Shown: positions 42,164 through 46,985 of the stretch, piece by piece
How the letters are laid out: each line of letters starts with the position of its first letter
How positions within the stretch are numbered: the stretch's first letter is position 1
Source of the DNA: Brachybacterium ginsengisoli
GTDB lineage: Bacteria; Actinomycetota; Actinomycetes; Actinomycetales; Dermabacteraceae
Assembly: GCF_002407065.1 (NCBI RefSeq)
Contig: NZ_CP023564.1
Location: 1,488,001 to 1,552,000, forward strand
Length of the DNA stretch: 64,000 nt
Direction: 5' to 3'
Translations under genes and position numbers: made by a program
Notes under the pieces: model-generated
Databases searched by the model: none
Told to the model about the DNA's origin: nothing
Seen by the model: only the letters and a program-made list of their open reading frames with translations

Positions 42164-42173
42164 CTCTTCTCGG

Positions 42174-42247
42174 GGTGATCGACGGGATTTGAACCCGCGA
42201 CCGCCTGGACCACAACCAGGAGCTCTACCAACTGAGCTACGACCACC
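42174..42247 (-). tRNA. tRNA-His, anticodon GUG
   Basis: On the minus strand the acceptor GTGGTCG/CGATCAC, D-arm AGCTCAGTTGGTAGAGC, anticodon stem CCTGG/CCAGG with loop TTGTGGT (GTG) and T-arm CGGGTTCAAATCCCG are complete. The extra 5' G (-1) at 42247 opposite the C discriminator is the histidine identity mark. Confidence 0.95.
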
Positions 42248-42777: not shown

Positions 42778-43518
42778 TCACAGGGCCGACAGGGTCCCGT
42801 CCACGAAACGGTAGATGTTCTCGTGCTTGACCCCGAACCGGCCGCCGAGCGGTCGGATGTGCGGTTCGACGGTGAACAGCTCCACGCTGTCCAGCCGCGC
42901 CCGGTTCCCGAGCTCGAGGTAGATCCGTGCAGAGCTCTCGCGCGCGATCGAATGGCCCAGGTTGCCGCGGAAGTCGAGGTTCTCGAAGCCGTGCGCGGCG
43001 ATGCGGCTGTTCATGGCGTGGGCGAGGGCCTCGAAGGTCATGTCGGGCTGCGCGATGCGCAGCAGCTCGTCGTGGAGCGCATGCTCGACCGCCACGGCAT
43101 CGCTCCACTCCCCGCGGCGGCTCTCGCGCGCATCGGCCAGTGGGACGCCGTCCTCGAGCACGAGGGTGCGGGCGAAGTCGCCCCAGATGCCGCGGCGCTG
43201 GGGGCTGAGATCCACGGTGATCAGCTCGGACTCGCCCAGGATGTGCTCCGGGGTGCGGTACTCCCTGCCGGACACGGACAGGACGGTGTCCTCGCCGGCG
43301 AAGACGAAGGCGCCGATGCCCCAGTACCAAAAGGAATCCGCCCCCAGCTCTCGCAGGGCGTCCTCGCCCAGACGACGGAGCTCGTGGAGGGACTGGCCGG
43401 GACGGAGCGATGCCCGGGCGCTCTCCATCGCGGCACGCGCCATGTCCTGCATCGCGGCATGCTCCTGCACGACGCTGTCCGGACAGGTCGGCATCGGCTC
43501 GGAGCTCGGGGACGTCAT
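42778..43518 (-). CDS. M24-family metallopeptidase
   Basis: A 246-residue pita-bread-fold protein. The five metal ligands of M24 peptidases can be assigned: Asp103 (TVDLS), Asp114 (WGDFART), His189 (GNLGHS), Glu218 (VEPH) and Glu233 (HENIYRF). It is shorter than X-Pro aminopeptidases and lacks their N-terminal domain, resembling stand-alone aminopeptidase-like proteins. It presumably binds two metal ions and cleaves N-terminal residues or acts on small amides; substrate unknown. The ATG at 43518 shares one base with the MFS gene's stop (TGATG), so the two are translated as a unit. Confidence 0.85.
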   Translation of the reverse strand: MTSPSSEPMPTCPDSVVQEHAAMQDMARAAMESARASLRPGQSLHELRRLGEDALRELGADSFWYWGIGAFVFAGEDTVLSVSGREYRTPEHILGESELITVDLSPQRRGIWGDFARTLVLEDGVPLADARESRRGEWSDAVAVEHALHDELLRIAQPDMTFEALAHAMNSRIAAHGFENLDFRGNLGHSIARESSARIYLELGNRARLDSVELFTVEPHIRPLGGRFGVKHENIYRFVDGTLSAL

Positions 43519-44822
43519 CACGCCACCGGCGCCAGCGCGTCGTACTCCCGGAAGCGGGGCAGTCGTTGCAAGAGCACGGTGACCAGCACGATCACCACCA
43601 GACCGCCCAGAAGCGGCGGGAACCACAGCGCCGTGAGCGAGGCGAGGGTCCCGGCGTAGAGGGCGCCCACCCGCGGCCCGCCCGCGACCACCACGATGAA
43701 GATGCCCTGGAGTCTGCCGCGCATCGTATCGGGCACCGCGGCCTGCATCATCGTGTTGCGGTAGATCGAGGAGATGTTGTCCGCCCCGCCGGAGACGGCC
43801 AGGGCCAGGCATGCCGCCGCGATGAGCGCCAGGTGCGGGGTGCTCGCGTCGGCGCCCGGGAAGAACGTGCTCACCAGGAGCACCGCGCCGAACATCGCGA
43901 TCGCGGCGCCGTACACCTGGATGGCCCGCGCGATCCCGCGACCGTGCCAGCGGTACCGGGACGCCCTCCCGGAGAAGACGCTCGAGAGGAAGGTGCCCGC
44001 CGCGACGGAGGCGGTCAGCACCCCGGTGGTGATCGCGCCGCCTCCCAGCAGCACCGTGCCCAGCGCCGGGAAGAGTGTCAGCGGGTTGCCGAAGGTCATC
44101 GCGATGATGTCCATCAGGTACTGGGTGCGGATATTGGCCGAGCGGCGCAGGTAGCGCCAGCCGTCCACCAGCGAGGCGAGGCCGGGGCGCACGATCTCCC
44201 CCTCGGGTCGCAGCGCGGGCAGGCTCCACAGCCCCAGGAACATCGCCAGCATGAGGACCACGTCGATCGTGTACGTGAGCCCGTAGCCGGTGGCCGCCAC
44301 GAGCACGCCCGCGAGCGCCGGGCCCACCATCACCATCACCCCGATGGTGATGCCGTTCAGCGCCGAGGCCGCCGCCAGCAGGTCCGCGGGGATCAGCCGC
44401 GGCACGATGGCGGTGCGCGTGGCCATGCCCACCGAGTTCGCGGCCGAGTTGATCACGCTGAGCAGGTACAGCCAGGCGATGGTCTCCAGCCCGGCCCAGG
44501 TCAGCGTGGCGAGCAGCGCGGTGGAGAGCAGGGTGATCACGGCGGCGGCGAGCGCGACGCGGCGCCGGTCGAAGGCATCGGCGAGCATCCCGCCGTAGAG
44601 TCCCGCGACGATCATCGGCACCAGGCCCGCGACCGCGACCATGGAGACGGCGAAGGTGCTGCCCGTCAGGGCGAACACGTGCAGCATCACGGTGACGATC
44701 GTGAGCTGACCGCCGAGGCCCGCGAGGGTCGACCCGATCCACAGCTTCGTGAACGCGCTGCTGGCGCGGAAGGGGCGCAGGTCCAGGAACGCTGAACCGC
44801 GGGAATCAGCGGAAGGGGGCAC
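43518..44822 (-). CDS. MFS transporter
   Basis: A 434-residue membrane protein with about 12 hydrophobic segments. It shows the typical MFS loop YGGMLADAFDRRRVALAAAV (GxxxDRxxRR-like motif A) between helices 2 and 3 and a similar SGRASRYRWHGRGIARAI in the second half. It looks like a drug or metabolite exporter of the enterobactin-exporter/MFS_3 type. The start is uncertain: GTG 44822 (VPPSADSRGS) precedes the conserved FLDLRPFRASSAFTKLW, while the frame to 45170 overlaps the fusion gene and the hairpin at 44887-44926. No ribosome site is visible. It is translationally coupled to the M24 gene; an export-and-processing pair is conceivable but unproven. Confidence 0.85.
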   Translation of the reverse strand: MPPSADSRGSAFLDLRPFRASSAFTKLWIGSTLAGLGGQLTIVTVMLHVFALTGSTFAVSMVAVAGLVPMIVAGLYGGMLADAFDRRRVALAAAVITLLSTALLATLTWAGLETIAWLYLLSVINSAANSVGMATRTAIVPRLIPADLLAAASALNGITIGVMVMVGPALAGVLVAATGYGLTYTIDVVLMLAMFLGLWSLPALRPEGEIVRPGLASLVDGWRYLRRSANIRTQYLMDIIAMTFGNPLTLFPALGTVLLGGGAITTGVLTASVAAGTFLSSVFSGRASRYRWHGRGIARAIQVYGAAIAMFGAVLLVSTFFPGADASTPHLALIAAACLALAVSGGADNISSIYRNTMMQAAVPDTMRGRLQGIFIVVVAGGPRVGALYAGTLASLTALWFPPLLGGLVVIVLVTVLLQRLPRFREYDALAPVA

Positions 44823-44886
44823 AGGAGGAGAGTACGCGGCGATCGCGGTGGGGCCGACGCGGTGGATGCGGCCCCGACACGACGAA

Positions 44887-44926
44887 CGGGCCCCGCCCGC
44901 CTCCAGGAGGAGGGGGGCGGGGCCCG
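44887..44926. terminator. Hairpin after the oligoribonuclease fusion gene
   Basis: CGGGCCCCGCCC pairs with GGGCGGGGCCCG, separated by about 16 bases. It lies 27 bases beyond the fusion gene's stop and before the MFS gene in the same direction, so it probably separates their transcripts. Confidence 0.7.
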
Positions 44927-44953: not shown

Positions 44954-46858
44954 TCAGCTGTGCAGGTCGTGGTCCAGCAGGCCGTCCCGCAGGGCCGCGG
45001 CGAGCACGGGCGTCACGGGCAGGCGGGGGATGAGCGTGGCCTGGAAGGCGTGGTAGATGTCGGGCTTGCCCGGCCAGGTCACGCCCTGGACCTCGTTGTC
45101 CGCGTCGAGCTCGTGGAACCACGAGCCGCTCTCGGGGTCCAGCAGATAGGTGGAGATGTACTCCCACCACTGCTCGTAGCGCTCGGCCCAGATCCGGTCA
45201 CCGGTCACCTGGTGCATGACGGCGGCGGCGCCGATCGCCTCGGCCGCGACCCAGTGCATCCGCTCGCTGGAGACGGGGGTGCCGTCCCAGTCCACGGTGT
45301 AGACCCAGCCGGGCTGCCCGTCGGCCCCGAAGGCCGCGGCGGACTTCTCCATCAGCGCGGTGGCGGCCTCGAGCATCCACTCCGGGGCCTCGCCGTCGGC
45401 CGCGATGAGCGCGGCGCGCGCATGCAGCACCAGGCGGGACCACTCGATCCAGTGCCCGATCGTCGCACCATAGGGGCGGAACGGATGGGCCGGCTGGTCC
45501 TTGTTGTAGTCCAGCAGCGGGGACCAGTCCACGTCGAAGTGCTCGGGCAGCGCCCAGTCGTTGGAGCGGGCGAACTCGTCGATCGCGCGGGTCGCGATGC
45601 CGACGGCGCGGTCCAGCCAGCGGCGCTCGCCGGTGACGTCCGCCGCGGCGAGCAGCGCCTCGACGGTGTGCATGTTCGCGTTGATCCCGCGGTACTCCTC
45701 GCACTCCTCGAAGGCAAGGTCGAAGGTGTCCACGCTCATGCCCGCGGACTCCTCGAAGAACTTCTCGTCCAGCACGGCGAGAGCCTCGTCCAGCAGCTCG
45801 CGCGCTCCGGGACGCCCGGCGGCGGTCGCGCTCGCGGCGGCGAGCACCACGAAGGCGTGCGCGTAGGCCTGCTTGGAGTCGTCCACCGCGGCGCCGTCGG
45901 CCACGGCGGAGAACCAGCCGCCGTGCTCGTCGTCGTGGAACACCCCGCGCAGGGAGTCCAGGCCGTGATCGGCCAGGCGCCCCAGGCCCGGGCGGCCCAG
46001 CAGGTGGCCCAGCGCGAAGGAGTGGGTCATCCGGCAGGTGATCCACAGCTCCGAGGGGCGGGAGAGATCGGGTTCGCCGTCCTCATCGAGCCAGGCGAAG
46101 CCGCCGTCCTCCCGCACGGACTCGGAGCCGAACTGCAGCAGCTCGTCGGCCTCGCCGGCGAGCCACTCGCGGTGCGAGGCGCGATCCAGCCACGGCACGT
46201 GCGGCGCGGGCGCCGGGGCGGCGGCTGCGCCCGGCTCCTCGCGCAGCTCGAAGCTGCGGGAGGCCTCCTGGGCCTGGGAGGTGGTGGGGCCGGGCTCGTC
46301 CACCAGGAGCACCTCGCGGTAGTACTTCAGCTCCTGGATCGACTCGCGGATGTCCGCGAGCGCGCGGTGGCCGCCGTGCTTGGCGGGGATGTTGTAGTAG
46401 ACCCGCGGGAACCAGCGCTTGGCGAGCTCCTTGAGGCTGGAGACGTCGATGGTGCGGTACGAGAGCCACTGCGCGAACTCGGGCACGTCGCGGTCCAGGA
46501 ACACGCGGTCGGTGCCCACGCTGTTACCGGCCAGCGGCGCCTTGCCGGGCTCGGGGCAGTACCGGCGCACGTAGGCGAGGCACTGGGCCTGGGCGTCCTC
46601 GAGCGTGGTGCCGCCGTCGAGCTCCTCGAGGAGCCCGGAGACGGTGTGCATGTTCACCACGAAGGGATCCATGCCCTGCAGGGACTCCGCCGGGGGCTTG
46701 ATGACGACGTCGACACCGTCCCCGAGGATGTTCAGATCGGCGTCGGTCACGAGGACGGCGATCTCGACGAGCGCGTCGCGCTTCTTGTCGAGGCCTGTCA
46801 TCTCGCAGTCGACCCAGATGATGCGGTCGTTGATGGCACGTGTGGAGCTGGAGGTCAC
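44954..46858 (-). CDS. Fusion of oligoribonuclease (Orn) with AGE-family sugar epimerase/isomerase
   Basis: One uninterrupted 634-codon frame. Residues 10-185 are oligoribonuclease, the 3'-5' exonuclease that finishes RNA decay to mononucleotides: the DEDDh set is complete (Asp17 and Glu19 in WVDCEM, Asp117 in GTDRVF, His164 and Asp169 in HRALAD) and the 17-to-117 spacing agrees with E. coli Asp12-Asp112. Residues 190-221 are a Pro/Ala linker (AAAAPAPAPH). Residues 222-634 are a full N-acylglucosamine-2-epimerase-like (alpha/alpha)6 barrel resembling mannose/sulfoquinovose isomerase: RMTHSFALGHLLG, NANMHTVEALL, IGHWIEWSR, MHWVAAEAIGA, WFHELD and KPDIYHAFQ. Typically the two are separate genes. 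A GTG at 46198 (Val221) could start the second domain alone but has no ribosome site, so I read a true fusion. Sugar substrate not determined. Confidence 0.9.
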   Translation of the reverse strand: MTSSSTRAINDRIIWVDCEMTGLDKKRDALVEIAVLVTDADLNILGDGVDVVIKPPAESLQGMDPFVVNMHTVSGLLEELDGGTTLEDAQAQCLAYVRRYCPEPGKAPLAGNSVGTDRVFLDRDVPEFAQWLSYRTIDVSSLKELAKRWFPRVYYNIPAKHGGHRALADIRESIQELKYYREVLLVDEPGPTTSQAQEASRSFELREEPGAAAAPAPAPHVPWLDRASHREWLAGEADELLQFGSESVREDGGFAWLDEDGEPDLSRPSELWITCRMTHSFALGHLLGRPGLGRLADHGLDSLRGVFHDDEHGGWFSAVADGAAVDDSKQAYAHAFVVLAAASATAAGRPGARELLDEALAVLDEKFFEESAGMSVDTFDLAFEECEEYRGINANMHTVEALLAAADVTGERRWLDRAVGIATRAIDEFARSNDWALPEHFDVDWSPLLDYNKDQPAHPFRPYGATIGHWIEWSRLVLHARAALIAADGEAPEWMLEAATALMEKSAAAFGADGQPGWVYTVDWDGTPVSSERMHWVAAEAIGAAAVMHQVTGDRIWAERYEQWWEYISTYLLDPESGSWFHELDADNEVQGVTWPGKPDIYHAFQATLIPRLPVTPVLAAALRDGLLDHDLHS

Positions 46859-46985
46859 CGGACAACAGTATCGCGGGCACGCTCGCGAACGGCTCCGGCC
46901 GGGGAGTCCACGACGGTGCAGAAGGTTACTATCGGGTCATTCGGGATCGATGACGAGCCGACGAGGCGTCCAGGAGGACCGCGCT

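Follow-up and report, generated by a model that had tools for sequence, protein, structure and literature searches.

An oligoribonuclease-sugar isomerase fusion protein in Brachybacterium, probably derived from two neighbouring genes

Domain composition of the fused protein

How a ribonuclease and a sugar isomerase came to share one polypeptide, and whether their activities bear on each other, is the question raised by a gene of Brachybacterium ginsengisoli on the minus strand at 44954..46858 of the window (the whole stretch of 64,000 nucleotides analysed, to which all coordinates refer). The gene encodes 634 amino acids, with a GTG start at 46858 and a stop codon at 44954-44956, and no internal stop codon interrupts this 634-residue open reading frame. 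The initial annotation had described a complete oligoribonuclease (Orn) and a complete sugar isomerase in one polypeptide. This is borne out by family profile matches, namely with Pfam RNase_T at residues 14-176 (86 bits; cutoff 24) and GlcNAc_2-epim at residues 252-607 (382 bits; cutoff 23.4) and with the NCBIfam models given below, as well as by each of the 37 Brachybacterium genomes in which a match was found. The Orn residues and AGE motifs listed in that annotation were all retrieved, the five Orn residues being invariant among 34 complete fused proteins (33 from Brachybacterium and one from genus g4).

The Orn half (residues 1-205; 46244..46858, minus strand) is a DEDDh 3'-5' exoribonuclease followed by an actinobacterial C-terminal tail (PGPTT...FEL), and its score of 243.9 bits exceeds the cutoff of 106 bits of the NCBIfam Orn equivalog PRK05359. 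Its catalytic residues are D17, E19, D117, H164, and D169, kept in 34/34 complete fused proteins. The half is 53-55% identical to 9f7m (Blastococcus Orn bound to pGG) and 7wik (Mycobacterium smegmatis Orn), and it shares with such Orn proteins (PRK05359, DEDDh, REXO2-type) the full-length domain, the five DEDDh residues, and the actinobacterial tail. However, PDB entries for Orn contain a stand-alone chain of about 180-240 amino acids, whereas the fused protein adds an isomerase of 414 amino acids. The AGE half (residues 221-634; 44957..46198, minus strand) is a YihS-type (alpha/alpha)6-barrel aldose-ketose isomerase, 46% identical over about 410 amino acids to structures of the YihS subfamily of the AGE superfamily (sulfoquinovose/mannose isomerase; 2zbl, 2rgk, 7ag4), with which it shares the barrel, three active-site histidines (H397, H469, H603), and an aligned arginine (R276). 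These four residues are conserved in all 34 complete fused proteins as well, and H469 aligns with H248, the residue mutated in structure 7ag4. The N-terminal nuclease sets the fused protein apart from the YihS-type enzymes. The best NCBIfam score of this half, for the D-mannose isomerase ManIsomPseudo (NF051846), was 474 bits and thus below the cutoff of 600, so that the half was not classed as an established mannose isomerase. Between both halves lies an Ala/Pro-rich linker of variable length and sequence (residues 206-220; 46199..46243, minus strand).

In the AlphaFold2 model, pLDDT values were mostly above 93 for the AGE barrel, mostly 70-90 for the Orn domain, and below 50 for linker residues 207-218, so the AGE domain is predicted to be well folded, the Orn domain is modelled with fair confidence, and the linker is predicted to be disordered. 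A Foldseek search with this model returned 2zbl/7ag4 (TM 0.97 on target) and 9f7m. By sequence too, YihS/sulfoquinovose isomerase was the closest solved structure to the AGE half, and the Orn structures 9f7m and 7wik came closest to the Orn half. The component enzymes are ordinary, and it is their combination that is apparently undescribed; a literature survey, with most subscription papers outside its coverage, found nothing relevant on Orn-epimerase fusions or on the Orn of Brachybacterium.

Gene order and origin of the fusion

The phylogenetic spread of the architecture, which the initial annotation had proposed to search, consists of Brachybacterium and genus g4 (one genome, with both genes fused in one frame), both genes being separate neighbours in most other members of the Dermabacteraceae. 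Indeed, orn and the AGE gene are separate, adjacent, and co-directional in Dermabacter (g2), g3, g5, and g6, making their adjacency common to all six Dermabacteraceae genera examined. Both genes overlap by 4 nt in two loci (L027, ATGA; L031, GTGA), are 1-4 nt apart in three others (L029, L032, and L033), and are separated by 39-44 nt in Dermabacter hominis and close relatives. Outside the family, no orn gene was found in the flanks of at most 4 kb around 54 AGE loci (including those of Cellulomonas, Demequina, Nocardioides, Bifidobacterium, and Streptomyces), and, among the matches listed from the order (248 genomes) and the class (148 genomes), none spanned both halves. Long open frames upstream of the AGE gene in other families (L132-L143), considered as further fusions, were read as non-coding and GC-rich.

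In other families, a tRNA-His gene occurs within about 230 bases after orn in 21 of 23 loci (L151-L173), and this direct succession of orn and tRNA-His represents a neighbourhood conserved across the order. In most Dermabacteraceae loci, the tRNA-His gene is located a little beyond the AGE gene; in B. ginsengisoli this usual downstream neighbour of orn is found at 42172..42246 (minus strand), beyond the AGE half and further genes. As the AGE gene lies behind orn across the Dermabacteraceae and tRNA-His takes that place elsewhere, the AGE gene was placed there in the ancestor of the family and fused later. Whichever tree was used (AGE, Orn, or joined), the fused state required two changes. A single clade of fusions was rejected with p-AU values of 0.006 (AGE), 0.026 (Orn), and 0.0016 (joined), for a test group chosen after the states were seen and with g4 represented by one genome on a long branch that the AGE and Orn trees place differently. 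As judged from these sequences, the fusion apparently arose twice, in Brachybacterium and in genus g4.

The reading that is strongly favoured is that the bifunctional protein resulted from an evolution from operon to fusion, in a ratchet-like manner, with both halves working independently. The sequences support each step of this course. Starting from the order of the other families, with orn usually followed directly by tRNA-His, the AGE gene would have been placed directly behind orn in the ancestor of the Dermabacteraceae. Both genes would then have come to overlap or nearly touch, as they do in relatives, where the AGE Shine-Dalgarno sequence is located in or just past the end of orn. Subsequent loss of the orn stop codon would have joined the frames, apparently twice (Brachybacterium and genus g4), and decay of the internal ribosome site would have left AGE to be synthesised solely as an extension of Orn, so that the fusion is not easily undone. 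Such a course is a general process in overlapping, translationally coupled gene pairs (coupled unidirectional pairs are the subject of PMC10666635 and PMC12548453). The present case resembles it in its conserved gene order and in the spacing seen in relatives, which ranges from a 4-nt overlap to short gaps, and differs in that Orn and AGE are not known to form a common complex or to act in the same pathway. Since the stages survive in relatives, from placement of AGE behind orn through overlap and fusion (apparently twice) to loss of the internal start, the family offers a clean natural experiment on whether fusions come from neighbourhood and a ratchet or from selection.

Genomic context and a possible role for selection

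The B. ginsengisoli chromosome, a single contig, encodes one protein matching NF003765, so that the fused protein is its sole Orn, as it is its sole AGE-family protein. Three other RNase_T proteins look DnaQ- or helicase-like, and a DHH-family (NrnA) gene was not found on the chromosome. Hence, the fused chain carries the only recognised Orn of the cell, and this enzyme is permanently tied to an unrelated one. Orn family members clear pNpN and pGpG. In the fused protein, the Orn halves would dimerise and cut such short RNAs to mononucleotides. YihS-type enzymes use three active-site histidines (PMC7762179) to convert unmodified aldoses into ketoses and back. The flexibly tethered AGE barrel may do so independently of the nuclease, most likely with mannose and fructose.

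The main alternative is that the fusion was selected because tethering couples both activities, for instance by keeping the isomerase at a constitutive 1:1 dosage with Orn, by letting the halves stabilise each other, or by building a shared oligomer. It would account for two apparently independent fusions among six genera, for the adjacency of orn and AGE in all six of them, and for the maintenance of the fusion throughout Brachybacterium, without reversion in about 37 species and with both active sites intact. However, the gene neighbours, encoding an MFS_3 transporter, an OsmC protein, a thiamine-binding protein, a Fpg/Nei-like glycosylase, and tRNAs, reveal no pathway link, and sulfoglycolysis genes are absent among those identified. 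Similarly, the standalone AGE genes of Cellulomonas and Demequina adjoin serS, HAD-phosphatase-like, and exporter-like genes (read from the sequence), and these neighbours provided no substrate clue and, together with those of the fused gene, no common pathway. Furthermore, the linker is variable and of low complexity, leaving no conserved fixed geometry between the domains. Selection for tethering is therefore considered unlikely. A more specific form, in which RNA turnover is coupled to sugar use (Orn occupancy or released nucleotides tuning the isomerase) and two independent fusions were selected for that reason, is distinctly improbable. The ratchet-like origin needs no metabolic or allosteric coupling, and independent function of both halves is preferred because their neighbours give no common pathway. 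The initial annotation had known of no established link between the Orn and AGE reactions, in agreement with these neighbours. Of the novelties it had envisaged, co-expression is real and can be explained by the AGE gene lying between orn and tRNA-His before fusing, whereas no evidence was found for allosteric coupling, nor for a metabolic one. This case cautions against taking every gene fusion as a pathway link.

An MFS_3/MFS_1 transporter gene is located at 43518-44900 (minus strand), between the fused gene and tRNA-His, and is followed by a peptidase-like open reading frame at about 42778-43600, named by reading the sequence only. Elsewhere, a second Orn-like match, 36-38% identical, occurs in two family members (G020:C2:1707295-1707873 and G044:C13:382789-383301), and one Brachybacterium genome (L050, G015:C286) encodes a second AGE protein that is 47% identical to the AGE half of B. 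ginsengisoli.

Translation of the fused gene

In most Brachybacterium loci, a TANNNT hexamer ends about 6 nt upstream of the GTG start of orn, and no Shine-Dalgarno sequence is present. In B. ginsengisoli, this conserved -10-like hexamer (TACTGT; 46865..46870, minus strand) ends 6 nt before the GTG. As the hexamer closely precedes the start codon and a Shine-Dalgarno sequence is lacking, the fused gene is suggested to give a leaderless mRNA, from which a single chain of 69 kDa would be translated. The chain may be cut proteolytically at the linker in the cell.

An independent start at the GTG codon of Val221 (46196..46198, minus strand) had been left open by the initial annotation; the cell would then contain two products, the full-length fusion and an AGE protein initiated internally at Val221 or at another in-frame start. 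The codon is, by homology, the position of the old AGE start: it corresponds to the true start of the separate genes, where pairing with the anti-Shine-Dalgarno sequence amounts to -6.9 to -10.8 kcal/mol. In the fused species, pairing at the homologous codon was only +1.9 to -4.1 kcal/mol, no Shine-Dalgarno sequence accompanies Val221 in B. ginsengisoli, and only 18 of 36 fused loci have kept a start codon at this position. With the ribosome-binding site gone and the start codon lost in half of the species, the GTG is a relic and a separate AGE product from it is unlikely. Although a few species (L015, L035) possess other in-frame GTG codons behind a Shine-Dalgarno-like sequence, these alternatives are not conserved across the genus or fall within the first AGE helix. 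The existence of two products is accordingly rated as very improbable.

Integrity of the reading frame

A match to the fused protein was found in 37 of 38 Brachybacterium genomes, and in every one of these 37 a single frame led from one half through the junction into the other, confirming that the frame runs continuously through the Pro/Ala linker, as had been noted initially. The match covered the whole or nearly the whole protein in a single frame in 33 of those 37 genomes. In another (G006), the tblastn match was split in two, yet a single frame of 671 codons was present, two matches ended at contig ends but still spanned the junction, and in the last genome the AGE half carries a frameshift. 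Fusion-bearing species include B. paraconglomeratum, B. massiliense, B. tyrofermentans, B. timonense, B. squillarum, B. epidermidis, B. nesterenkovii, and B. alimentarium. Among the 34 fused proteins, mean pairwise identity was 86% for Orn, 79% for AGE, and 29% for the linker. Between its PGPT and WL anchors, the linker occurs in 12 lengths (99-207 nt), all multiples of three and free of stop codons. A missed stop codon or a frameshift merging two separate genes, as they do exist in relatives, can practically be dismissed, since the identical continuous frame in 37 assemblies of the genus and the frame-preserving indels of the linker refute a sequencing error, and the missed stop between the halves named initially as a possible refutation was not encountered in any of the linker lengths. 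In Brachybacterium sp. Z12 (L046/L066), a frameshift occurs within the AGE half, near residue 310 of the AGE query, and is possibly an assembly error.
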